Below are positions 1,385 through 19,122 of a DNA stretch of 25,806 nucleotides, in pieces. The DNA is from a virus. A model generated the notes under the pieces. The model ran no database searches and was not told where the DNA came from. It worked only from the letters and a program-made list of their open reading frames with translations. How positions within the stretch are numbered: position 1 is the stretch's first letter; each line of letters starts with the position of its first letter. A program made the translations under genes and the position numbers. The stretch lies in the IMG/VR virus record IMGVR_UViG_3300037502_002052, positions 1 through 25,806 of that record, one strand, 5' to 3'.

Positions 1385-1416
1385 CACTTGTGCAAAACAA
1401 ACAAGTGTGCTAGATT
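1385..1416 (+). promoter_or_regulatory. Promoter with CACTTGT-N9-ACAAGTG operator
   Basis: An inverted repeat, CACTTGT (1385-1391) and ACAAGTG (1401-1407) with 9 bases between, overlaps a possible promoter: TTGTGC at 1388-1393, a 17-base spacer, then TAGATT at 1411-1416. The same inverted repeat with identical spacing occurs at 4075-4097 before another plus-strand unit. A repressor or activator dimer bound here would cover the promoter. It precedes the 1477 gene by about 60 bases. Confidence 0.5.
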
Positions 1417-1476
1417 TCTCTGGCATCGGGGCTTGAACCCCGGGCCTTTGGCAAACGGAAAAAGGAGAACGGCGAA

Positions 1477-2199
1477 ATGAAAAAGGGTCTTGGTACGCGG
1501 GCGGGGGAAACAATTTCGAAAGGCGTGATCTACCGGGGGCCGTCGCTGATCGACGGCGCGCCTATTGTGGTGGTCGCGGTCTATTCCAAGCGGAACAAAA
1601 AGACGGGCGGCATGGTTCAGACATACATCATTCGGGAAGATATCAACCCGCTTGAGGCCAGCAAAACCGGGGCCGATTTCTCAATCTGTGGCACTTGTGT
1701 GCACCGGGGCACACCAACGGCGGACCCGGCCGCAAAACAAGCAAAAGAGCGCGATTGCTACGTGCTGCTAGGGCAAGGGCCGCTAGTAGTTTTTCGCGCG
1801 TATCATCGGGGCGTCTACGGCGTAGCAGACCCGGCCGCTATCGGGCGCGGCCGCATGGTCAGGCTTGGAACCTACGGGGACCCGGCCGCCGTGCCGTCGC
1901 ATGTATGGGATGCGCTTTTGTCAGAAGCCGCAGGGTGGACCGGATACAGCCATCAATCGGGATATCGGCCAGAAATTGTCATGCAATCGGCCGACACCTA
2001 CGGGCAAGCGCTGATCTTCTGGCAAGCCGGGGCCCGCACGTTTCGCGTGGTGCAGAACGTCTCAGAAATCGATCCTTCCCGGGAAGTGCTTTGCCCGGCC
2101 AGCAAGGAAGCGGGCAAGCGCACGACGTGCGAAGCTTGCAAGCTTTGCGCCGGGCTTGCGACGCGCTCTCCTAAATCCGTTGCTATCGTGCAGCATTGA
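1477..2199 (+). CDS. Cysteine-containing phage protein of unknown function (DUF7227-like)
   Basis: 240 residues. ATG 1477 follows AAAAAGGAG at 1459-1467. Two cysteine groups stand out: SICGTCVHRG with a later DCYV, and near the C-terminus CPASKEAGKRTTC-x2-C-x2-C, both compatible with metal or iron-sulfur binding. The segment MVQTYIIREDINP followed by the SICGTC block resembles an uncharacterised phage/plasmid family that I remember as DUF7227; a profile search would settle this. The gene stands alone, with its own promoter/operator (1385-1416) and terminator (2243-2272), and is flanked on both sides by CGCAGAG repeats, like a moron-type cassette. No membrane segments are apparent. Confidence 0.8.
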   Translation: MKKGLGTRAGETISKGVIYRGPSLIDGAPIVVVAVYSKRNKKTGGMVQTYIIREDINPLEASKTGADFSICGTCVHRGTPTADPAAKQAKERDCYVLLGQGPLVVFRAYHRGVYGVADPAAIGRGRMVRLGTYGDPAAVPSHVWDALLSEAAGWTGYSHQSGYRPEIVMQSADTYGQALIFWQAGARTFRVVQNVSEIDPSREVLCPASKEAGKRTTCEACKLCAGLATRSPKSVAIVQH

Positions 2200-2242
2200 T
2201 TTGCCGCGCCGCGCCCATATCCGCCCGGGCGCGGCCACCTTG

Positions 2243-2272
2243 CCCCCGGCGCTTAGGCGTCGGGGGTCTTTT
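2243..2272 (+). terminator. Rho-independent terminator after the 1477 gene
   Basis: A 10-base-pair stem (2243-2252 with 2257-2266, one G-U pair) with loop TTAG is followed by TCTTTT. It serves the plus-strand cassette. The minus-strand nuclease gene ends inside this hairpin (its stop codon is at 2253-2255), so the two units converge on the same structure. Confidence 0.75.
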
Positions 2273-2690
2273 CCGTTCCACCCGCAGAGCGCAGAGCCGC
2301 AGAGCTCCGCTCAGCGTTGAGCCGCAGAGCATCGGCGCAGAGCAGGCGCAGAGCATCGGCCATGCTGTCAGACTCGATCAGCGCGGGGCCGCAGAGCAGG
2401 CCCGCAGAGGCCGTAGGAGAGGGCGCAGAGGCCCTCCATATTTTGACGTAGGGTGGGTGCGCAAAGCCGCAGAGCACGTATGAGAGGCCACCGCATGAAG
2501 CCTGCCGCGCGTGCCACGCGGCCTGCTGCGGGCGCAGAGAAACGCCATCTGTTTTCGAGGCTTTCAGTTCGACCCAAAAGCTCACCCCGGGGATACAAAT
2601 ATGCACGTCAGGAATACCGCCGCCGTGGCGGTTCTCAATCCTCGTCGCGTGACACTTCGGGGGCAGATATTTCCGCATATTTGCCCACAC
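2253..2690 (-). CDS. PD-(D/E)XK nuclease, VRR-NUC-like
   Basis: Starting from GTG at 2690 (ATG at 2678 is the alternative) it has 145 residues. The nuclease signature is clear: E19 in RIEN, GIPDV with D28, E41 and K43 in WVELK, then Q55 in a LRPQQAAW helix. This order fits VRR-NUC / Holliday-resolvase-like PD-(D/E)XK enzymes, which cut branched or damaged DNA and are common in phage packaging or replication clusters. The start overlaps the end of the small terminase gene by about 55 bases; ATG 2777 would overlap by 143 and is less likely. The last 50 or so residues derive from the CGCAGAG repeats and are probably not part of the catalytic fold. The stop lies in the terminator of the opposing gene. 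Confidence 0.75.
   Translation of the reverse strand: MWANMRKYLPPKCHATRIENRHGGGIPDVHICIPGVSFWVELKASKTDGVSLRPQQAAWHARQASCGGLSYVLCGFAHPPYVKIWRASAPSPTASAGLLCGPALIESDSMADALRLLCADALRLNAERSSAALRSAGGTEKTPDA
2283..2475. repeat. CGCAGAG repeat cluster, right copy
   Basis: About eleven copies of CGCAGAG or CGCAGAGC lie within 193 bases at irregular spacing, partly in longer units such as GCGCAGAGCATCGGC. Read on the minus strand they code for the C-terminal third of the nuclease, giving repeated ADALRL-type residues. Irregular spacing rules out a CRISPR array. Replication slippage or spread of a short mobile repeat could explain the cluster. Confidence 0.65.
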
Positions 2691-3276
2691 CTTTGCTTCT
2701 GGTCCGGCCACTGGGCACCTCCGTGTATTCGGCATCGACGATGAAAGCCTGCGGGTATTTCTGCTGCAACTCCGCAAGGCGGGCGGTGATCTGGTCGCGT
2801 GTCATCTGGTCGATGGTGTTGACGTTCTCGCGACGGTCAACCGTCAGGCCCCCGAGTGCCGATCTGATCTTCTCCGCGTTGATGGCGGCAGAAAACTGGC
2901 TGGCCTCTTCGGCCCCGCGTGACAGCTTGTACAGCCGTTCAAGCTGGCCGGACAGGCTGACACCGTACAGCCGCTCCTTCTCGTCCCGAAGCTGGGATAT
3001 GTATCGAGGGATGTGCGGGAAGGACGACCCGTTCAGAAGCTTGGTGGCGATATCGCTGGCAGCGTTGGGGCTGTACCCCGCCTGCCTCGCGCATTCGGTG
3101 GCCGTCAGCCTGCCTTCAACATACAGTTCGCAGAACGTGCGCTGCCTGACAGTAATCTCCCGGCCGTACTCTTCCTCAAGCTCAAGCTCGAAGGCGGACT
3201 TCAAGAGAGGGGCAGCATCGACCGTCTTGTCAAACTTCGCACGGGGCACAGGTCCCGGCTTTTTACGCTCGGCCAT
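2635..3276 (-). CDS. terS: Terminase small subunit
   Basis: 213 residues, ATG at 3276 with GGAGG just upstream on the minus strand. The segment ITVRQRTFCELYVEGRLTAT followed by AGYSPNAA and a KLLNGSS helix is the classic helix-turn-helix pattern of small terminase subunits, which recognise the packaging site and load the large subunit. The N-terminus is basic (MAERKKPGPVPR); the middle contains long charged helices suited to oligomerisation. It is followed on the same strand by the nuclease, but no large terminase subunit lies nearby, which is unusual because terS and terL are normally adjacent. The upstream region 3277-3733 may carry its promoter and possibly the pac site. Confidence 0.85.
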   Translation of the reverse strand: MAERKKPGPVPRAKFDKTVDAAPLLKSAFELELEEEYGREITVRQRTFCELYVEGRLTATECARQAGYSPNAASDIATKLLNGSSFPHIPRYISQLRDEKERLYGVSLSGQLERLYKLSRGAEEASQFSAAINAEKIRSALGGLTVDRRENVNTIDQMTRDQITARLAELQQKYPQAFIVDAEYTEVPSGRTRSKGVGKYAEISAPEVSRDED

Positions 3277-3350
3277 GTATCAACCTCCAACTTGTGGTAT
3301 TCCCACAACTCTACAGCGCCAAAAGCGGGCTGGCAAGGTGGGGCAAAGTC

Positions 3351-3610
3351 GAGTTTCCCTTATAGGCCCGTAGCTCCCAGCGTCATTTCAACCGTTTCAA
3401 CAACGCTCAGGGACAGGGCAGGGTAGAGAAGTTGCTGACTATTTCCGCTTGTTTGTAAAGCCGATACGTTCAAAAAACGTGTTTGTAAAGGCTGGAATCC
3501 CTTATTTATAAGGGTGAAATCCATAAATTTTACGCCAAAAGGTTTTTTTTCCTCCGATCAGCGTGAGCTTCACACTCACGCTGGAGTCCACGGCAGTATA
3601 AGGGAAACTC
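3351..3610. repeat. Perfect 14-base inverted repeat, arms far apart
   Basis: GAGTTTCCCTTATA at 3351-3364 recurs on the opposite strand at 3610-3597, so the two copies point towards each other. The core CCCTTAT also forms both halves of the palindrome at 3499-3514, giving four copies in mirror arrangement. Each outer copy points towards the transcription unit lying beyond the other one, as divergent promoter elements would. Confidence 0.7.
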
Positions 3611-3657
3611 GCGAAGCACCAAGGCCCGAGGCCCAAGAACCACCCCACCTCCCCCTC

Positions 3658-3691
3658 TTGACACAGAACCACGGATGTTTGTTAGTAACAA
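3658..3691 (+). promoter_or_regulatory. Promoter/operator candidate before the 3734 gene
   Basis: A consensus -35 box TTGACA (3658-3663) is followed by the small palindrome TTGTT-AGT-AACAA (3679-3691), which continues into GTGC. The AACAAGTGC end resembles the right arm of the operators at 1401 and 4091. The -10 box is poor, so activation or a different sigma factor may be needed. Confidence 0.4.
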
Positions 3692-3733
3692 GTGCAACAC
3701 AACCCTACAACCTAGACCCAAGGACCGCAGCCA

Positions 3734-4060
3734 ATGCTTCTCCTAATCTCCTCCGACCACCGCATCCCTGCCAGCAAGGCTTTGCGTCGTGCGCGTCTGG
3801 AGCATGGCGGCGACCTGCCTCCGCCTCCGGGCTTCACCCACACTATCGAGGTATCGGGCGACGATCCCACGTCTGGCTTTGGCGCTGTCTTGGACGCCAT
3901 GGTGGTGGGGGAGAGCGTGTTTGTCCCAGTGCCGAGAACCGAGGGGAACGGGCATCGGGCCCGGATCATGAGCGCGGCGCGTCGCAGGCAGGTTGCCGTG
4001 CTGACGCGGTCGGGCACTGAGGGCCAGACGTATGGCATGCGGGTCTGGCGCTTATCCTGA
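3734..4060 (+). CDS. Small hypothetical phage protein
   Basis: 108 residues, ATG at 3734 after AAGGACC (3720-3726). The layout LDAMVVGESVFVPVP, then RRRQVAVLTRSGTEG and a C-terminal GMRVWRLS, resembles a small recurrent phage family with a conserved GESVFVP and terminal RVWR. I cannot name it securely. The protein is basic in its second half and could bind nucleic acid. It is the first gene of the long rightward run, preceded by its own TTGACA promoter candidate and followed by a second promoter at 4065 that separates it from the rest. Confidence 0.7.
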   Translation: MLLLISSDHRIPASKALRRARLEHGGDLPPPPGFTHTIEVSGDDPTSGFGAVLDAMVVGESVFVPVPRTEGNGHRARIMSAARRRQVAVLTRSGTEGQTYGMRVWRLS

Positions 4061-4064
4061 CCCC

Positions 4065-4097
4065 TTGACACCCGCACTTGTTTATTTTACACAAGTA
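4065..4097 (+). promoter_or_regulatory. Promoter with CACTTGT-N9-ACAAGTA operator
   Basis: TTGACA at 4065-4070 is a consensus -35 box; 17 bases later lies TACACA (4088-4093). The inverted repeat CACTTGT (4075-4081) and ACAAGTA (4091-4097), separated by 9 bases, overlaps the spacer and the -10 position. This is the same element as at 1385-1407. It probably drives the 4131-9212 run and lets one DNA-binding protein control both units. Confidence 0.6.
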
Positions 4098-4130: not shown

Positions 4131-4355
4131 ATGTCTGACAAGACGATCACTCTTACCATGTCTTTGCGCCATGCGCGCACTGTGCTCGACTGCATCGACG
4201 CCGACATGGACCTGAGCACTCACGAACGCCCCGACTATCAGGACATCGACGAGATGGCGCATTATCTGCGCCGCGCCGAGGCTCGGATGATGCTCAAGTT
4301 TGCCATTCAGGATGCTACCGAGGACCAAGAGCCGCGGACCGAGGAGGCTGTGTGA
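4131..4355 (+). CDS. Small acidic helical protein
   Basis: 74 residues, ATG 4131 preceded by CGGAGAACC. Acidic and predicted helical (MSLRHARTVLDCIDADMDL, MAHYLRRAEARMMLKFAIQ). No motif is recognised. It ends at TGA 4353-4355, whose last base is the first base of the next ATG, so the two genes are translationally coupled. It is the first gene after the 4065 promoter. Confidence 0.75.
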   Translation: MSDKTITLTMSLRHARTVLDCIDADMDLSTHERPDYQDIDEMAHYLRRAEARMMLKFAIQDATEDQEPRTEEAV

Positions 4356-8766: not shown

Positions 8767-8935
8767 CCCATCCAACAGCCCCGGCGCGAGAGCGTTGAGG
8801 CGGGCGGGCTACGTCAAATGCCCAGCATGGTGGCTGACACAGGAGCAGTTCGAGCTGCTGCAATACATGGCTCGGCAGAACCTGCCGGACATCAACCGTA
8901 TCAAACAAGAAGCAGAGGACCGGAATGGCTGGTAG
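8756..8935 (+). CDS. Short hypothetical protein
   Basis: 59 residues from ATG 8756 to TAG 8933-8935. It has a basic N-terminus (ARALRRAGYVK), then CPAWWLTQEQFELLQYMARQ, then an Asn/Ile-containing helix. The sequence looks like a small folded domain that could bind DNA, perhaps helix-turn-helix, but no certain match is known to me. It overlaps its neighbours by 11 bases on both sides, which supports a real gene in a coupled chain. Confidence 0.6.
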   Translation: MPRDPSNSPGARALRRAGYVKCPAWWLTQEQFELLQYMARQNLPDINRIKQEAEDRNGW

Positions 8936-9219: not shown

Positions 9220-9306
9220 GCGAGGGGCGCACACGAAACCTGCGGTTTTGTCTTGGTCGAAGGTCAGACTGCGCTACGGCTCACCATCCACCATCGCGCC
9301 CCTCGC
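9220..9306. other. Intergenic structured element, 11-base-pair closing stem
   Basis: GCGAGGGGCGC (9220-9230) pairs perfectly with GCGCCCCTCGC (9296-9306) around a 65-base interior that contains a further small hairpin AAACC/GGTTT near 9237-9248. On the minus strand an 8-base-pair stem would stack on a CGCA/TGCG hairpin, superficially tRNA-like, but no anticodon arm can be drawn. It lies between the stop of the HTH gene and the promoter region of the 9391 gene, and could be a small RNA, a terminator-like structure or an operator. Confidence 0.4.
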
Positions 9307-9390
9307 GATACCCAAAACCGAAGAGCCTTGTTTCCTGCTCACAGGACAGCTATAACCCTGTCATAAGCTGCTTGTTGGAGGCTACACACG

Positions 9391-9591
9391 ATGGCCAATA
9401 AAGGTCTTGTCTTTCGGAATGTGGCCGTCCCCGAGGACGACCACAAACTTCTTGCCATCATCGCCGAGAAAGAGGACCGCTCTATGGCTCGGCAACTCGC
9501 CGTGATGATCCGCGAAAAGTACCGCGTGATTCAATCGGAAGAGGGTAGTACGGCGGAGGACATGGCGGCAGCTTCGGAAAAGAAACGATGA
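9391..9591 (+). CDS. Ribbon-helix-helix type DNA-binding protein
   Basis: 66 residues, ATG 9391 with GGAG about 10 bases upstream. The pattern of a short strand (LVFRNVAVP), then DDHKLLAIIAEKEDRSMARQLAVMIREKYR, is that of an Arc/MetJ-type ribbon-helix-helix protein, which binds operator DNA as a dimer of dimers. It is a candidate to bind the inverted repeats at 1385, 4075 or 11263, though nothing in the sequence proves that. It is separated from the upstream chain by 178 bases and faces the helicase unit, whose distal gene it overlaps by 110 bases at the 3' end. A GAGCGC/GCGCTC hairpin follows at 9592-9607. Confidence 0.7.
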   Translation: MANKGLVFRNVAVPEDDHKLLAIIAEKEDRSMARQLAVMIREKYRVIQSEEGSTAEDMAAASEKKR

Positions 9592-9796
9592 GAGCGCCGA
9601 GGCGCTCCCGGCACAGCTCCTTCAGCATGATCTCACAGAAGAACACCTCGAGCCCGCTGTAATAGCTCATGTGTTCGAGGGCATCGTCCCTCGTCCGATC
9701 CCCAAACTTGTACTCCAGCACAGCCTTCATGAACTGCCAGTGGGCCATGAGGTCGTCGCCTGTGATATTGTCCAGCTCGGCTAGAGTTTGAGCCAT
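9482..9796 (-). CDS. Small hypothetical protein downstream of the SNF2 helicase
   Basis: 104 residues from ATG 9796, overlapping the helicase stop by 16 bases. The first 75 residues look like a genuine helical protein (DDLMAHWQFMKAVLEYKFGD, ALEHMSYYSGLEVFFCEIMLKELC). The last 30, rich in Pro and Arg, lie over the 3' end of the opposing ribbon-helix-helix gene and may be a run-on tail. No function can be given; co-transcription with the helicase is likely. Confidence 0.6.
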   Translation of the reverse strand: MAQTLAELDNITGDDLMAHWQFMKAVLEYKFGDRTRDDALEHMSYYSGLEVFFCEIMLKELCRERLGALIVSFPKLPPCPPPYYPLPIESRGTFRGSSRRVAEP

Positions 9797-11235
9797 TCCA
9801 TCGCCTCCTCTCTGAGAACCTTCGCCCCGATGTCGATTTTGTTCCTCAATGCTGCCACAATCTTCTCGTCCACCGTCTTCTCCGTTATCAGGTCCACGTA
9901 GGTCACGGGGTTCCTCTGGCCAATACGGTGGACGCGATCTTGACTTTGCAGTCGATGCTCCAACGAGTAGTCGTTTGCGTAGTAGACCACGAGGTTAGCT
10001 TCGGTCAGTGTCAGACCATAACCTGCCGTCGCCGGGTTGCCCACGAAGAACCGAAGGGGATGTCCCGGGTTCTGGAAGTTGCGAACGATGTCGTTGCGCT
10101 CCTCGTCTGATGTCCCCCCGAAATAAGATGCTGCGGAACCTTCACCATATTCTTTGCGAAGCGTTTCGGTGATCGAGATGATGTCGTGCCGGAAGCGAGA
10201 CCAGACGAGGGCCTTTCCATCGTGCTCCTCGAGTATCTCGAGCAACGCCTCCATCCGATTGGACTTGAAGGTAATGATGTCCCCATCGTCCGTCTTGAGG
10301 TGGCCGGACAGCACCTGTTGCAGGCGGAGGAGCTGGGTTATCACGACGGGGGTGGACACCAACTCTGTCCCATTGATCAGGGTGAACGCCTCCTTCCTGA
10401 TCTCGTCGTACATCTTCTGCTGCTCGGGGGTCATGCTGACGTAGCGTGCGGTAAATGTTCGCTCGGGTAGGTCGAGGCACTCCTTCTTCAGGACTCGGTA
10501 GGAGAACCTATCAACTCGCTCACCCAGCTCCTCCAGATTGCGGTAGCCTATGATCTGTTCGAAGCTGTGCGCTCCCATCTTCCGCTTCTGCGTCACAGCG
10601 TACCGCCCTTGGAAAGCGTAGTAGCTGTCGCAGCCCAAGAGCCGAGGTCCGAGGAACTCGCATTGAGCGTAGATGTCCATGGGCGACTTGGTCACAGGCG
10701 ATCCTGTCAACAGCCGACGGTACTTGAACATCGAGGCGATCTTGATGAGGGCCTTGGTCCTCTTGGCTTTGTGGTTCTTGATGGTGGTCGATTCGTCGAT
10801 GCCGATCAGACCTCGGGCCCCGAACTTCTTGCCCAACCACTCGCCTGCCTGCTTGCCCTTGAGGGCAGAGAAAGCTTCGACGTTCATGACGAAGAGGGTC
10901 AGGCCCCCGAAGAACTTGCCGACCGACTTGATCTCGGCCTCTTGTTCCTTGTTCGCAGTGGACACCCAGCGAATCACCCGCTTCTCCAACTCGTCGGGCA
11001 TGTGCTCTGGGATTTCTTTCGACACCCAGTTGCGGTACACGCCTTTGGGTGCAATGATCAGGGCGAAGTCTATCTTGCCCTCGAGGTACAGGTTGCTGAT
11101 GGTGTCGATCAGCACCTTCGACTTACCAGTGCCCATCTCCATGAAGAATCCATAGGACTCCCGGTCGAGAGAGCGTTCGAGCGCCGTCACCTGATGGGCA
11201 TATGGCGTCGTCTTAAAATTCAGCTTGACAGTCAT
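9781..11235 (-). CDS. SNF2-family DNA helicase/translocase
   Basis: 484 residues. ATG 11235 is chosen because CGGAGGA lies just upstream on the minus strand; an earlier ATG at 11259 lacks this. Motif I is MEMGTGKSK (K38), motif II is GIDEST (D147, E148), motif III LLTGSPVTKSP, and motif VI QDRVHRIGQ near residue 445, the signature of SNF2-type superfamily 2 ATPases. Phage members of this type act as replication or recombination helicases that move on duplex DNA. The length is that of a bare core without accessory domains. It is divergently transcribed from the replication genes at 11311 and shares an operator-like palindrome with them. Confidence 0.9.
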   Translation of the reverse strand: MTVKLNFKTTPYAHQVTALERSLDRESYGFFMEMGTGKSKVLIDTISNLYLEGKIDFALIIAPKGVYRNWVSKEIPEHMPDELEKRVIRWVSTANKEQEAEIKSVGKFFGGLTLFVMNVEAFSALKGKQAGEWLGKKFGARGLIGIDESTTIKNHKAKRTKALIKIASMFKYRRLLTGSPVTKSPMDIYAQCEFLGPRLLGCDSYYAFQGRYAVTQKRKMGAHSFEQIIGYRNLEELGERVDRFSYRVLKKECLDLPERTFTARYVSMTPEQQKMYDEIRKEAFTLINGTELVSTPVVITQLLRLQQVLSGHLKTDDGDIITFKSNRMEALLEILEEHDGKALVWSRFRHDIISITETLRKEYGEGSAASYFGGTSDEERNDIVRNFQNPGHPLRFFVGNPATAGYGLTLTEANLVVYYANDYSLEHRLQSQDRVHRIGQRNPVTYVDLITEKTVDEKIVAALRNKIDIGAKVLREEAMEWLKL

Positions 11236-11310
11236 GGCATATCCTCCGATATACTGCATCTACAACAAGACGACTTGTTGATCAACCACAAACCTGAAGA
11301 GGATATACTT
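11236..11310. promoter_or_regulatory. Divergent intergenic region with CAACAAG/CTTGTTG palindrome
   Basis: A 75-base gap separates the helicase start (minus) from the 11311 start (plus). It contains CAACAAG-ACGA-CTTGTTG (11263-11280), an inverted repeat with 7-base arms made of the same ACAAG/CTTGT words as the operators at 1385 and 4075 but arranged the opposite way. Ribosome binding sites for both genes are at its edges (GGAGGA for the minus gene, AGAGGA at 11298-11303 for the plus gene). Confidence 0.5.
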
Positions 11311-12704: not shown

Positions 12705-14246
12705 ATGTCAAATGCCAGACGTCTTCTGCTTGCCTTTCAAGGCTCGGACTTGGCCCATGGACGAACGACCGTGGGCCGAGTTGCGAGAAACGGCAAGGCA
12801 GAAGCCAACAGTTATGTCATCCGTGAGGTGATGACGGAGGAGCACGTCGAGGCGCATCTTGCAGGCAAGCAGGGCGTCGGCGCGATCCCGATCAATTCGA
12901 AGAACGAGTGCTGCTTCGGGGCCATCGATGTCGACGACTACGACCTCGACCACAAGGCCTTGGCCACACGGATTAAGAACCAGAAGCTGCCGCTGATCCA
13001 GTGTCGCTCGAAGTCGGGCGGTGCGCACCTCTATCTGTTCTTGGACAACTGGTACCCGGCCGCCATGGTGCGGGAATACCTGACCGAGATGGCTGCCGTG
13101 CTGGGCTTTGCTGGCCGGGAGATATTCCCGAAGCAGGACAAGATACTGTTCGACCGTGGGGATGTGGGCAACTTCATCAACACGCCGTACTTTAACGCCG
13201 ACGCCACCGTGCGCTATGCCATCTCGGAGACGGGTGAGGCGCTGAGCTTGGAGGAGTTTCTCGACAAGGTGGAAGCCAGCCGGATTCCCATGTCGAAGCT
13301 CGAGATCGCCCCGCATGTGGAAGCCCGCGACGACCTGAAGGACTACCCGCCCTGTCTAGAGCAGATCATCCAGCAGGGTGTTGTCAACAGCTACCGCAAC
13401 ATCACCATGTTCAACATGATCGTGGCGCACCGTAAGGCCAGCCCCGAGGGGTGGAAGAAGCTGCTCGAGGAGAGCAACGCGCGGTACTGCGACGAGCCTC
13501 TCGGCGCGGAAGAGATTGTCACGCTGCAGAAGCAGCACGACAAGAAAGTCTACGGGTTCCAGTGCACAGCCCAGCCGCTCTGCAACTTCTGCAACAAGGA
13601 CCTCTGCCGCTCCCGCAAGTATGGGATCGGGGGCAGTGGCCCTGTCGAGTTCCCGAAGCTCACGGGCATGACAATCCTCAACTCGTCGCCCAAGATGTTC
13701 TTCCTCGACTACGACGGGCAGCGTCTCGAGCTGACATCAGAGCAGCTCTCCGTCCAGTCGGCCTTCAGCAGAGCCTGCGTTGAGCAAGTGGATAGGATGC
13801 CCCCGACGATCAAGCCCACGGAGTGGAACAAGTTGGTCAACGACCTCCTGTCCACTGCGATCAAGATCGAAGCCCCGCCGGAGCTGACGCTGCGCGGGCA
13901 GTTCGAGGACCTGATCAAGGAGTACTGCACGAGCAACATCAAGGCCATGGTCCCAGAGGAGATGGTCATGGGCAAGCCTTGGACGGACAAGGGCCTGACC
14001 AAGTTTACCTTCGGTGGTCTGGCCGAGTTCCTGAAGTTCCGCGGGTTCACCACGGTGACGCGCCCGCAGATACAAAACTTCATCCGAGACCTCAACTCGG
14101 GTGCTGCCTGCAATGGCCATCAGGCCGTGAAGAAAGAGGACGGCGCTCCCTCAACGATACGCGTGTGGTGGGTGCCTGCCTACAAAGAGTCCCATGTGGA
14201 CATGAGATCGGAGTCGAGACGTGAAGCAACCAGTATTCCCTTCTGA
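12705..14246 (+). CDS. DNA primase of archaeo-eukaryotic type (TOTE-like AEP)
   Basis: 513 residues, ATG 12705 after GGAGAAG. The AEP active site is visible: IDVDDY with D75 and D77, then CRSKSGGAHLYLF with H108, and a later FPKQDK ... GNFINTPYFN segment, matching the primase domain described in TOTE conflict elements and in many phages. A cysteine group (C287, C293, C296, C301, followed by RKYGIG) probably binds zinc or an iron-sulfur cluster. The C-terminal half is helical and may contact DNA. The protein ends SRREATSIPF, echoing the SSB tip. It synthesises primers for the family A polymerase encoded downstream. It overlaps the HTH gene by 26 bases. Confidence 0.85.
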   Translation: MSNARRLLLAFQGSDLAHGRTTVGRVARNGKAEANSYVIREVMTEEHVEAHLAGKQGVGAIPINSKNECCFGAIDVDDYDLDHKALATRIKNQKLPLIQCRSKSGGAHLYLFLDNWYPAAMVREYLTEMAAVLGFAGREIFPKQDKILFDRGDVGNFINTPYFNADATVRYAISETGEALSLEEFLDKVEASRIPMSKLEIAPHVEARDDLKDYPPCLEQIIQQGVVNSYRNITMFNMIVAHRKASPEGWKKLLEESNARYCDEPLGAEEIVTLQKQHDKKVYGFQCTAQPLCNFCNKDLCRSRKYGIGGSGPVEFPKLTGMTILNSSPKMFFLDYDGQRLELTSEQLSVQSAFSRACVEQVDRMPPTIKPTEWNKLVNDLLSTAIKIEAPPELTLRGQFEDLIKEYCTSNIKAMVPEEMVMGKPWTDKGLTKFTFGGLAEFLKFRGFTTVTRPQIQNFIRDLNSGAACNGHQAVKKEDGAPSTIRVWWVPAYKESHVDMRSESRREATSIPF

Positions 14247-14547
14247 GGCGGACGACCGCCTCTTGAGAGCTGCCGACGTGTGTCGGTGGCTGAACCTGTC
14301 GGAGTCCACTCTGTATAAGTGGATCAAGGAAAACAAGTTCCCGAAGCCCTACTCGCTGGGCGACGAGCAAGATCAAAACTCAGTGTCCCGGTTCTCCAAG
14401 AAGGAGATCGAGGATTGGCTATATGCAAGACCAAGAGGGAAGTTTCATGGAACAGAGAAAGCTGTTGCTCGGTCCCCCCGGGTGCGGAAAAACCCACAGG
14501 CTAATCTCGGAAGTGGAGATGGAGCTGGCTCGGGGGACGAGGCCTGA
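14221..14547 (+). CDS. Small AlpA/excisionase-type HTH protein
   Basis: 108 residues from GTG 14221, with GGAG upstream. Residues 12-55 (LLRAADVCRWLNLSESTLYKWIKENKFPKPYSL and on) are a MerR/AlpA-type winged helix-turn-helix as in excisionases and small phage regulators. The C-terminal tail is basic and then Gly/Ser-rich and overlaps the helicase gene by 101 bases in another frame, so its last 35 residues may be dispensable. It probably binds DNA; whether as a regulator or as a replication accessory factor cannot be told. It overlaps the primase end by 26 bases, which indicates coupling. Confidence 0.75.
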   Translation: MKQPVFPSEADDRLLRAADVCRWLNLSESTLYKWIKENKFPKPYSLGDEQDQNSVSRFSKKEIEDWLYARPRGKFHGTEKAVARSPRVRKNPQANLGSGDGAGSGDEA

Positions 14548-15973: not shown

Positions 15974-16256
15974 CCAGAAGAGAATCGAAATCTTGAAGCG
16001 CGCTGCCGAAGTGACTGGCGGGGAGCGGCAGGATTCCTACGGCCCTGTTAAGGACAACATGTCCACTATCGCCGAGTTCTGGAGCACGTACCTGACCGAG
16101 AGGAACGGTATCTATACCCCGCTCGACGCCTCGGACGCGGCGTGGATGATGGTCCTGCTCAAGGCCGCCCGCTCCCTGAACGGGGGCTATCACGAAGACA
16201 ACTATGTGGACGCGGCTGCCTATGCCGCCATCGCCGGGGAATGCGCCTGTGAGTAA
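15963..16256 (+). CDS. DUF6378-like phage protein
   Basis: 97 residues from ATG 15963, overlapping the helicase end by 11 bases. The pattern RIEILKRAAEVTGGERQDSYG, then IAEFWSTYL, then MMVLLKAARSL and DNYVDAAAYAAIAGE matches a small phage family I know as DUF6378, whose function is not known and which often accompanies nucleotide or replication genes. The helical layout with conserved D and E residues recalls nucleotide pyrophosphohydrolase-type folds, but that is only an analogy. It overlaps the polymerase start by 8 bases. Confidence 0.8.
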   Translation: MSSDQKRIEILKRAAEVTGGERQDSYGPVKDNMSTIAEFWSTYLTERNGIYTPLDASDAAWMMVLLKAARSLNGGYHEDNYVDAAAYAAIAGECACE

Positions 16257-19122
16257 AGACCGCTTCGACGTCAGCACGGACGACTTCCTGCTGAAGATGG
16301 ACCTGTCCAACCCGGACGTCGAGTGGTTCATGCCCTCCGAGTTTCCCGACCTAACGAACAATAGGACGATGGCCATCGACCTTGAAACGCGGGACCCGAA
16401 CCTGACCACCATGGGTCCGGGCTGGGCGACCAAGCATGGCGAGATCATCGGCATCGCCATCGCGGCCGGGGACTTCTCCGGCTACTTCCCCATTGCCCAC
16501 GCCAAGGGGCCGAACCTCGACAAGAAGGTGGTGTTCCGCTGGCTGCAGAAGCAGCTTGCGACGCCGCACATCACCAAGATCATGCACAACGCCAGCTACG
16601 ACTTGGGCTGGCTCATGGCCTCGGGGATCACGGTCCAAGGTCCGGTGATCGACACCATGCTGGTCGCCCCGCTCTTGGACGAGAACCGCCTGTCCTACCG
16701 CCTCGACCTGTTGGGCAAGGACTATCTGGGCATGCGCAAGGACGAGAAGGTCTTGAAGAGTGCAGCCGCAGAGTGGGGCATCGATCCGAAGGCCGAGATG
16801 TGGAAGCTCCCGGCCCGCTACGTGGGCGTCTACGCCGAGCAGGATGCGGTGCTGACGCTCAAGCTGTGGGAGCGGCTGAAGCCCATGCTCGAGGACCAGA
16901 GCCTGCTGTCGGTCTGCGATCTGGAGCACCGTGTGCTCCCTGTCGTCATCGACATGCGGATGCGCGGGGTTCGCGTCGATCTGGACAAGGCCGAGATCGC
17001 CAAGAAAGAGCTGCGCAAGAAGGCCGACGAGCTGGCCGCGTGGATCGCCAGAGAGTCCGGGGTCAAGGTCGATCCGTGGGCGGCCGCCTCGGTGCAGAAG
17101 ATGTTCGATGCCCTCGGCCTGCCCTACCCAAGGACCGAGGCCGGAGCGCCGTCGTTCACCAAGCAGTTCCTGCAGGCCATGGACCACCCGGTGGCCAAGG
17201 CCCTCGTCAACCTGCGCGAGATGGACAAGGCGGATAGCACCTTCATTGACTCTATCCTCCGTTTTCAGCATAATGGGCGCATCCATTGCGAAATGCACCA
17301 GCTGCGATCCGATGACGGAGGCACCGTCACTGGGCGCTTCGCTTCATCTCACCCTAACATGCAGCAACTACCTGCGCGCGATCCGTTTGTTAAGCAGCTC
17401 ATCCGTGGGTTGTTTATACCAGAGGATGGTTGCAGATGGGGGTCCTTTGACTACTCATCACAGGAGCCCCGACTGCTTGTCCACTTCGCAGCGAGCCATC
17501 CGGAGACGGAGCGGGATGCAATTGTTGCGCAGTACGTGGAGGGCTACGGCAGCGGAGACTTCGACTTCCACCAGATGACCGCTGATCTGACAGGCCTCAA
17601 CCGGAAGGCTGCAAAAACATGTATCGCGGAAGGTCAGCTTGTTCTCACGCACGTTGGTCTGGTTCCAATAGAGAAAATAACAGTAGATCATCTTGTATGG
17701 GATGGGGTAGAGTGGGTAGGCCACGAGGGTGTGGTGTACATGGGGGAAAAGGAGGTCATTACCTATGACGGGCTTACAGCAACGGCCGATCACGAAGTGT
17801 GGGTTGGACGAGAACGGACGCTTCCTTTCGGGGTCGCAGCATCCAGACTGGAAAGACTTTCTCGAACCGGAATTGGAGAACGCCCGGTTCGGCTCGTGGA
17901 CGATTGTTTCCCGGAAGATCGAAAGACGTGGCAAGCACATCTACGTGAGGGTGCGCTGCGACTGTGGGGCAGAGGACTGGAAGCTGCTCAACAACTTGCG
18001 CGAAGGAAAATCGACGGCCTGCCGTCCTTGCAGTACGCGGGAGCGGCACCGGAAGGCTGGCAATATGCTGGTGAACTCTCCGGCAGAGAAGTCTTTACAG
18101 GGGCGCATAACCGCGATCATGCAGCGCTGCACCAACCCAAAGGACAGGAACTGGAAGAACTACGGGGGCAGAGGGATACGCTTCAAGTTCTCGTCCTTGA
18201 AAGAGTGCGCGGACTACCTAATATCCTTGCACCCAGCAGAGGGTTGGAAGGGGTACGAGGTCGACAGGATAGACAACAACGGACACTACGAACCGGGGAA
18301 CTTGCGCCGTGTCACCTCGGCAGTGAACCTGCAGAACAGACGCAGGACAGTTTGGGTAGAGTATCTGGGCCAGAAGGTTGTTCAGGCGCATCTCTGGCAT
18401 CTGATCAAGACAGACCATCCGGACTTTTCGTTTGGTCCAGCGAAGGTTCGAACCCTGCTGGAACAGGGGATGAGACCAGAGGATATCCCGAGCTACGTCC
18501 GACACGGAAAGCGCGTGTCTACGACATTCGTAACGCCGGACCCCGCCATCGTTTCACTGTATCGGGACGCCTAGTACACAATTGTGGATTGGGCATCCTT
18601 TATGGCATGGGGAAAGGTAAGATGGCCCAGCAGCTTGGGATTTCTCTGGAAGAGGCCGCGTCCATTCTAAGCCGCTTTGATGACAAGGTGCCCTTCGTGA
18701 AGAAGCTGGCCACGCTGGCCTCGACGCGGGCAGATCGGGAGGGCAAGATTCGCACAATCGGCGGCCGCCTGTGCCGCTTTGATCTTTGGGAACCTGCCAG
18801 CTTCGGCTACAATAAGCCCATGAAGTACGACGACGCGCAGCGTGAGTACGGTGGGATGGGTCGCCTGAGACGGGCGTTTACCTACAAAGCCCTGAACCGT
18901 GTGATCCAAGGATCGGCTGCCGATCAGAACAAACTCGCCATGGCGCAGTGCTACGAGGAGGGTCTGGTCCCGCTCCTCACGGTGCATGACGAACTGTGCT
19001 TCAACGTGGAGACCGACGAGCAGGCGGCCCGGATCACCAAGATCATGGAAGAAGGGCTGTCCCTCAAGGTTCCCAGCAAAGTGGACCAAGAACTCGGCAA
19101 CAATTGGGGAGAGGCCGGATGA
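16249..19122 (+). CDS. polA: DNA polymerase A with intein (3'-5' exonuclease + polymerase)
   Basis: 957 codons from GTG 16249; after removal of the 321-residue intein the mature enzyme has 636 residues. The proofreading domain has D44/E46 (MAIDLET), N114 and D118 (HNASYD) and D199 (YAEQDA). The polymerase domain has TGRFASSHPNMQQLP, motif A with D401 (FDYSSQE), motif B interrupted by the intein after RKAAKT (R452, K456), QGSAAD, and motif C VHDE (D914). No 5'-3' exonuclease domain is present, as usual for phage enzymes. At the position equivalent to Phe762 of E. coli Pol I the residue is Leu (781 of the precursor). An ATG at 16204 is in frame but lies deep within the previous gene. It overlaps the next gene by 4 bases. 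Confidence 0.95.
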   Translation: MSKDRFDVSTDDFLLKMDLSNPDVEWFMPSEFPDLTNNRTMAIDLETRDPNLTTMGPGWATKHGEIIGIAIAAGDFSGYFPIAHAKGPNLDKKVVFRWLQKQLATPHITKIMHNASYDLGWLMASGITVQGPVIDTMLVAPLLDENRLSYRLDLLGKDYLGMRKDEKVLKSAAAEWGIDPKAEMWKLPARYVGVYAEQDAVLTLKLWERLKPMLEDQSLLSVCDLEHRVLPVVIDMRMRGVRVDLDKAEIAKKELRKKADELAAWIARESGVKVDPWAAASVQKMFDALGLPYPRTEAGAPSFTKQFLQAMDHPVAKALVNLREMDKADSTFIDSILRFQHNGRIHCEMHQLRSDDGGTVTGRFASSHPNMQQLPARDPFVKQLIRGLFIPEDGCRWGSFDYSSQEPRLLVHFAASHPETERDAIVAQYVEGYGSGDFDFHQMTADLTGLNRKAAKTCIAEGQLVLTHVGLVPIEKITVDHLVWDGVEWVGHEGVVYMGEKEVITYDGLTATADHEVWVGRERTLPFGVAASRLERLSRTGIGERPVRLVDDCFPEDRKTWQAHLREGALRLWGRGLEAAQQLARRKIDGLPSLQYAGAAPEGWQYAGELSGREVFTGAHNRDHAALHQPKGQELEELRGQRDTLQVLVLERVRGLPNILAPSRGLEGVRGRQDRQQRTLRTGELAPCHLGSEPAEQTQDSLGRVSGPEGCSGASLASDQDRPSGLFVWSSEGSNPAGTGDETRGYPELRPTRKARVYDIRNAGPRHRFTVSGRLVHNCGLGILYGMGKGKMAQQLGISLEEAASILSRFDDKVPFVKKLATLASTRADREGKIRTIGGRLCRFDLWEPASFGYNKPMKYDDAQREYGGMGRLRRAFTYKALNRVIQGSAADQNKLAMAQCYEEGLVPLLTVHDELCFNVETDEQAARITKIMEEGLSLKVPSKVDQELGNNWGEAG
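17749..17767 (+). promoter_or_regulatory. Shine-Dalgarno and start codon of the nested endonuclease
   Basis: AAGGAGGT (17749-17756) is a full anti-16S match, 8 bases before ATG 17765. In the polymerase frame the same bases encode the intein residues KEVITYD leading into block B. A GTG at 17729 is also in frame but has no such site. This decides the start of the nested gene and argues for independent translation. Confidence 0.85.
17765..18574 (+). CDS. HNH homing endonuclease nested out of frame inside the PolA intein
   Basis: 269 residues in the +1 frame relative to polA. Residues 41-48 (RFGSWTIV) open the usual core of phage HNH enzymes; CDCG (65-68) and CRPC (86-89) form a zinc site; GRITAIMQRCTNP (113-125) and YGGRGIRF (133-140) precede the HNH segment EVDRIDNNGHYEPGN (165-179), then NLQNRR (188-193). 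All are typical of stand-alone phage homing endonucleases that cut an unoccupied allele and provoke gene conversion. The C-terminal part (200-269) probably binds DNA. The start has a perfect ribosome binding site. The stop TAG falls in the codons for LV of intein block G. The first 40 residues are encoded by overprinting intein blocks and match no HNH motif. Confidence 0.9.
   Translation: MTGLQQRPITKCGLDENGRFLSGSQHPDWKDFLEPELENARFGSWTIVSRKIERRGKHIYVRVRCDCGAEDWKLLNNLREGKSTACRPCSTRERHRKAGNMLVNSPAEKSLQGRITAIMQRCTNPKDRNWKNYGGRGIRFKFSSLKECADYLISLHPAEGWKGYEVDRIDNNGHYEPGNLRRVTSAVNLQNRRRTVWVEYLGQKVVQAHLWHLIKTDHPDFSFGPAKVRTLLEQGMRPEDIPSYVRHGKRVSTTFVTPDPAIVSLYRDA

Follow-up and report, generated by a model that had tools for sequence, protein, structure and literature searches.

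A conserved palindrome at presumed promoters of uncultured phages, and a ribbon-helix-helix-like protein as its candidate repressor

The Arc protein of phage P22 is a small ribbon-helix-helix (RHH) repressor from a temperate phage, and it acts on an operator of about 21 bp in one control region. The C1 protein of P1 and gp71 of mycobacteriophage L5 each act at many dispersed sites and serve lysogenic immunity. Here we describe a 23-bp palindrome, ACTTGT-N9-ACAAGT with the core TTGT/ACAA, that recurs at presumed promoters of IMG/VR virus record IMGVR_UViG_3300037502_002052, which was analyzed in its entirety (25,806 bases, hereafter the window), and in related phages. As with Arc, the candidate regulator is a small phage protein, in this case RHH-like; as with P1 C1 and L5 gp71, the sites are several and dispersed. 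In contrast to all three systems, no integrase (PF00589), no resolvase and no HTH_3 match (PF01381, E ≤ 1) was found in five records (G000 to G004), two of which exceed 55 kb and none of which has been shown to be complete. The pairing of an HTH_3 repressor with an integrase that marks lambda-type immunity was not found in any of the five.

Two other systems resemble the present one, and we use them as likenesses, not as tests. The arrangement is similar to that of SvtR from the Sulfolobus virus SIRV1 (PMC5569661), and sites at several other viral promoters, which characterize the SvtR mode, are found here too (five in the window, with more in relatives G001 and G004), the binder being a candidate. 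However, SvtR belongs to an archaeal virus, and recognizes another consensus. Its strongest site is some 80 nt away from the promoter elements; the present sites lie within presumed promoters, and their binding is predicted. In Escherichia coli, the RHH repressor RelB (PMC2812701) binds TTGT-type hexads ([A/T]TGT[A/C]A) at relO, where two 12-bp half-sites take two dimers. RelB differs in that it serves toxin-antitoxin autoregulation at one operon and tolerates no spacing between its half-sites, and its likeness to the phage protein is one of recognition type. Among the papers listed from the openly licensed PMC literature, nothing on point turned up for this motif or for an RHH protein of lytic phages that represses early promoters.

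The palindrome and its positions in the window

The window holds five copies of the element, starting at 1385 (site A), 3289 (D), 3672 (C), 4075 (B) and 11272 (F). An original prediction, made from the sequence letters, had pointed to 23-base inverted repeats at 1385-1407 (CACTTGTGCAAAACAAACAAGTG) and 4075-4097 (CACTTGTTTATTTTACACAAGTA), and both are present, the second departing from a perfect palindrome at its final base. The prediction held their spacers to be unrelated, which proved incorrect: the reverse complement of the first (CACTTGTTTGTTTTGCACAAGTG) shares 20 of 23 bases with the second, which shows the spacers to be related, and the element has a partly conserved A/T-rich middle. Half-sites noted at 3679-3693 belong to a copy at 3672-3694 that has three mismatches. 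The dyad noted at 11263-11280 exists, but the conserved element is 11272-11294, which is preserved in L007, L008, L009, L010 and L051 where the CAACAAG half of the dyad is altered. The copy at 3289-3311, before the terminase small-subunit gene, is an addition to that earlier list.

Several observations indicate that the element is not a product of chance. Across the window and 137 loci (138 sources totaling about 1.6 Mb, partly overlapping), 7-base arms with at most one mismatch occur 25 times at a spacing of 9, three times at 12 and not once at the ten other spacings between 4 and 15. Before relatives were considered, the plain pattern with up to three mismatches matched the window 13 times on both strands against 3.87 expected, a count equaled by 2 of 100 shuffles. 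A symmetric matrix trained on 17 distinct sites from relatives, with its information peaking at TTGT and ACAA, gives 36.8 bits for B, 31.2 for A, 18.9 for D, 13.8 for C and 12.6 for F, all above the top of 20 shuffles (8.9), and the next-best window candidate reaches 5.3. The loci of the window, G001 and G004 were kept out of training, but close relatives contributed sequences identical to B and D and one a single base off A (C and F were absent), so for the window the matrix scan does not count as independent; G004 and the records fetched by RHH homology are independent of the training set. In the 137 loci there are 100 sites of at least 15 bits, compared with 1, 2, 1, 4 and 2 from five palindromic matrices with permuted columns, although overlap and common ancestry mean that neither these counts nor the spacing counts are independent events.

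Position points the same way. All five window sites are wholly non-coding in a window that is 8.6% non-coding by our gene list (chance about 3e-6), and each stands at a presumed promoter; many copies outside promoters, which would speak against a regulon, were not seen there. A phage regulon with a shared operator, as originally proposed, is well supported by the fixed spacing, the position and the conservation in relatives, and the sites are very likely operators.

The relation of each site to its presumed promoter varies, with hexamers assigned by eye. Site A (1385-1407) lies upstream of ORF A, a 240-aa open reading frame (ORF) of unknown function (1477-2199, plus strand; phrog_2554, 3.9e-61); a presumed -35 (TTGTGC, 1388-1393) falls in the left arm of the site and is followed after 17 nt by the presumed -10, TAGATT (1411-1416), beyond the right arm. 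Many copies of GCAGAGC flank ORF A on both sides (1230-1330 and 2280-2480), and similar tracts occur upstream of it in some relatives. Site B (4075-4097) precedes an operon starting at 4131, whose first ORF (4131-4355, plus strand) is of unknown function; TTGACA stands ahead at 4065-4070 and the operator covers the presumed -10, TACACA (4088-4093). The weaker site C (3672-3694), upstream of the ORF at 3734-4060, is preceded by TTGACA at 3658-3663 and also covers a presumed -10, so that at both B and C the TTGACA begins 10-14 bp ahead of the operator. Site D (3289-3311) ends 12 nt ahead of the start of the terminase small-subunit gene (2635-3276, minus strand; PF03592, 5.7e-10; phrog_51, 6.2e-15) and covers the last four bases of the -10 in a TTGCCA-N17-TAGAGT pattern (3336-3308, minus strand). 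Site F (11272-11294) occupies the divergent promoter region between an SNF2-type helicase gene (9781-11235, minus strand; PF00176, 7.9e-19; phrog_62, 1.2e-119) and 11312, and a -35 can be made out on either strand in its core TTGATCAA (11278-11285).

Sites in related phages

The window is probably a fragment of a larger genome because its relative G001 (55.9 kb) extends past both of its ends. In G001, sites A, B, D and an outside site G, which precedes a phrog_419-family ORF, exceed the top of 20 shuffles (14.5 bits), F (12.6) falls under it, and C was not among the matches listed from the matrix scan. In G004, whose ORF A is 68% identical, B, G and A exceed the top shuffle (16.5) and D (13.1) falls under it; its site F exists with two arm mismatches, outside the 12 best matrix matches. 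The presumed -35 at site G is inside the operator in G001 and overlaps its left arm in G004. Pairs of sites 277-294 bp apart were also seen in the site G region, on the far side of ORF A (L071, 22/299; L074, 1968/2245; L063, 233/527). Aligned copies of F, all with two arm mismatches, are found in L004 (G001), L007 (G002), L008 (G003), L009, L010 (G004) and L051. The site B arrangement is repeated in L064, L068, L070, L072 and L076, and L064 and L068 have an identical copy of C.

Site A, allowing two mismatches, stands 83-102 nt ahead of the ORF A start in 22 of 38 upstream regions (not dereplicated). Of the 16 regions without it, 13 come from phages at most 62% identical in ORF A, and in one (L066) the contig stops just within the site; none was seen in L071 or L079, where ORF A is 77% identical. 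In L087-L102 the ORF A starts were set by offset and many are off ATG, which makes absence there uncertain.

A further set comes from RHH homology. A tblastn search (E up to 0.1) of 50,697 phage records gave no match to the RHH-like protein, while relatives of it are encoded in 239 IMG/VR stretches, of which the best 80 were fetched. Records found solely in this way (L263-L265) carry sites at apparently equivalent genes: 20.5 bits before an early-type gene, 16.0 at the terminase and 3.1 upstream of ORF A in L263; 19.6 and 15.8 in L264; and 12.6, 4.1 and 8.5 in L265. The terminase small-subunit gene was checked by alignment: in L263, L264, L265, L267 and L268 its ATG follows the end of a site by 7-10 nt (16.0, 15.8, 4.1, 10.3 and 9.3 bits), with none at that gene in L269; the other gene assignments in distant relatives were made by position and eye. 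The L263 site at 3355 is overrun by an ORF with a non-ATG start.

Some matches count against perfect specificity, and we regard them as due to chance or as undecided. They are G001 24117 (exact 6-base arms, 8.2 bits), inside a 1150-aa ORF; G004 12128 (12.0), mostly within an ORF; G002 19932 (12.9); and L267 12650 (19.3, exact arms) and L266 18761 and 18286 (14.2 and 12.6), inside listed ORFs. The 1150-aa ORF of G001 (L142 970-4422) is of low complexity (AAADKAAAEKAA and GTGTGT tracts) and lies immediately ahead of the terminase large-subunit gene. Twenty IMG/VR stretches matching ACTTGTTG-N5-CAACAAGT (32 to 66% G+C) were set aside, with no common gene among the ORFs of L153, L160 and L170. In twelve loci searched for other repeated palindromes, every arm word occurred at most twice.

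A related terminase small subunit, 31 to 35% identical, is encoded by just four records of the phage collection: two pelagiphages, Phage DSL-LC04 and phage 023Pt_psg01. The helicase has a wider distribution there, at no more than 50% identity among the matches listed. Pelagiphage HTVC027P is a remote relative (terminase small subunit 32.9% identical over 70%), and temporal clusters have been reported for it in a paper whose available part does not contain the term promoter (PMC12753301).

Candidate regulators

The best candidate for the binder is the 66-aa protein encoded at 9391-9591 (plus strand), which was among the regulators originally proposed. We call it RHH-like by pattern (38 members were aligned), not as a Pfam member, since its match to PF07878 (RHH_5; E 0.006, 16.7 bits) is under the cut-off of 26; it also matches the Arc-like repressor family phrog_3180 at E 0.096. 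RHH proteins have a strand at the N terminus ahead of two helices and, as dimers, place a two-stranded sheet in the major groove. In a low-confidence model of the monomer (pLDDT 70), residues 1-14 have no assigned structure, helices span 15-27 and 30-62, and no strand is called. PDB sequence searches with RHH and AlpA profiles returned nothing useful. The window encodes the protein, as do all five of the records with exact-arm sites (G001-G004, G021). Overall it is present in the window, G001-G007, G021 and G022, and was not found in G008-G010, G011-G020 or G023, the last being a close-relative fragment and hence uninformative. Sites with at most one mismatch occur in 5 of 9 records with the protein (G001-G004, G021) versus 2 of 14 without it (G012 and G015, one each). 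Among loci of at least 10 kb, a site of at least 12 bits is found in 17 of 30 with the protein versus 10 of 48 without (Fisher p 0.0016, with overlapping loci and kinship as confounders).

The protein may also act at its own promoter. Against shuffles preserving base composition only, a site at p ≤ 0.02 is found in 9 of 38 distinct upstream regions of RHH genes, and seven of the nine lie at -65 to -55 from the predicted start. Comparable fractions are 12/35 for the helicase, 7/54 for ORF A and 4/19 for the terminase (starts are misplaced in distant clades), and control regions gave 0/21 for the AlpA-like gene discussed below, 0/27 for DNA polymerase, 0/27 for gp34 and 2/22 for primase. The best sites at RHH promoters are in L190 (15.6 bits) and L202 (15.1), close relatives with near-identical proteins, where the site lies between TTG... 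and, 17 nt on, TATAAC. In the window, the presumed promoter of the RHH gene has the degenerate site H (9325-9347, GCCTTGTTTCCTGCTCACAGGAC, three arm mismatches) within TTGTTT (9328-9333), 17 nt, TATAAC (9351-9356). An inverted repeat, GCGAGGGGCGC ... GCGCCCCTCGC, is located ahead of the gene at 9220-9306 and is kept in L004 and L006 and nearly so in L007. Some RHH relatives (L182, L185, L188, L204, L205, L226) have an N-terminal RGRP or GRPK stretch, which we take to resemble an AT-hook; one of them, L204, comes from G005, a record without a site at up to one mismatch.

On the sequence evidence, it is more likely than not that the RHH-like protein binds these sites. We put the probability that the sites are operators of one phage repressor, most likely this protein, which shuts several promoters, at a little under 60%. 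A number of observations weigh against this interpretation. In addition to the sub-threshold Pfam score, the monomer model has low confidence (pLDDT 70, pTM 0.48), and a PDB fold search with it gave no match at E ≤ 0.001. Four records (G005-G007, G022) encode the protein with no site at up to one mismatch, so its presence does not by itself imply sites, and conversely those 10 of 48 loci hold a site with no RHH match. The strand residues FRNVAV are unchanged in relatives of G005 and G007, whose helicase promoter differs in sequence. At the RHH genes themselves, 29 of 38 upstream regions miss p ≤ 0.02, and in the window site H, whose CTTGT-N9-ACA has a degenerate right arm, does not reach significance (p 0.11). 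From center to center the outer arms are separated by 15 bp, which in our judgment is unusual if they are read alone. A promoter scanner found 1 promoter-like site in 13 kb versus 3.2 in shuffles, an absence of excess that leaves the hexamers without statistical support. What the sequences show is the sites, how constant they are, where they lie and that they occur together with the protein; repression, the binder, the early class of genes, timing and purpose are inferred.

The rival that fares best is an AlpA-like helix-turn-helix (HTH) protein of 108 aa (14221-14547, plus strand), with a clear match to a DNA-binding family (PF05930, 8.3e-11, 42 bits, cut-off 21). It had been proposed as a regulator together with an HTH protein at 8925; the latter was not found in G004, which carries sites, and the former stands as a rival but not as the best candidate. 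It is present in 17 of 22 records, nearly equal to the 19 of 22 for the RHH-like protein, a further point against favoring the latter. Its presumed recognition helix differs in clades with a differing helicase promoter, although kinship alone would give the same. However, its own upstream regions carry no site at p ≤ 0.02 (0/21, as above), and its gene, part of the replication operon, overlaps both of its neighbors, primase and a UvrD-type helicase, a position that suggests another role. The AlpA-like protein was missing from the searches of G001 and G024, but both records are incomplete, and G001 lacks about 2 kb right there. Altogether, we consider it unlikely that the AlpA-like protein is the one that binds the operators.

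Activation, or a switch that works in both directions, is less probable still. There is precedent in the viral RHH protein AvtR, which both activates and represses (PMC5569661). In the present phages, however, the operators take mixed positions relative to the presumed -35 and -10 within the polymerase footprint (-35, spacer, -10, start), which fits a repressor better than an activator, and repression is quite probable. We also consider it improbable that a host transcription factor binds the sites, with the phage having borrowed its operator. The presumed use of host-type promoters speaks for a host protein, but the full palindrome ACTTGTTGA-N3-TCAACAAGT has 9 exact matches, in unrelated groups, in a 257 Gb genome collection, where about 4 would be expected at equal base use (our estimate, covering exact copies and not degenerate host sites), and the motif is common to phages of 45 to 60% G+C. 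RHH proteins do take part in partition of known plasmids, but it is very unlikely that these are centromere-like sites of a phage-plasmid, given that they are dispersed and at promoters, and that no ParA-type ATPase of family PF13614 was found in G000-G004 (other ParA families were not searched).

A possible repression program in uncultured phages

If the RHH-like protein is indeed the repressor, it would occupy the operators, probably binding the palindrome as two dimers, and block host RNA polymerase. The units shut off would be the operon after 4131 (site B), ORF 3734 (C), ORF A (A), the terminase small subunit (D) and the divergent replication block (F), as well as a further promoter outside the window (G). 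Through the weaker site H, it would probably limit its own gene, and a weak operator there, set against strong ones elsewhere, would allow the repressor to persist. The likely purpose would be to turn off genes presumed early and middle as infection progresses. A broader picture, which we offer tentatively and hold to be somewhat less likely than not, is that of an apparently virulent, uncultured phage lineage without lysogeny, in which a single autoregulated RHH repressor would control almost all early and middle units through the conserved TTGT...ACAA operator.

An in-frame insert of about 320 aa (17617-18681), lacking in G001 and G004, interrupts the ORF of the family A DNA polymerase (16204-19122). 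By motif, its ends look to us like those of an intein, with C-IAEGQLVLT close to the start, TATADHEVW as a further block and FTVSGRLVHN before a C; Pfam found no intein or endonuclease domain.

The operator may be read as the sequence signature of a transcription program in uncultured phages. In archaeal viruses, a shared regulatory sequence has been used to find anti-defense genes (PMC11065993). An analogous search could start from ORF A and from the genes at 3734 and 4131. Should the broader picture hold, early genes in many environmental phages would carry this operator as a mark, and it could help to locate genes for host takeover and anti-defense.

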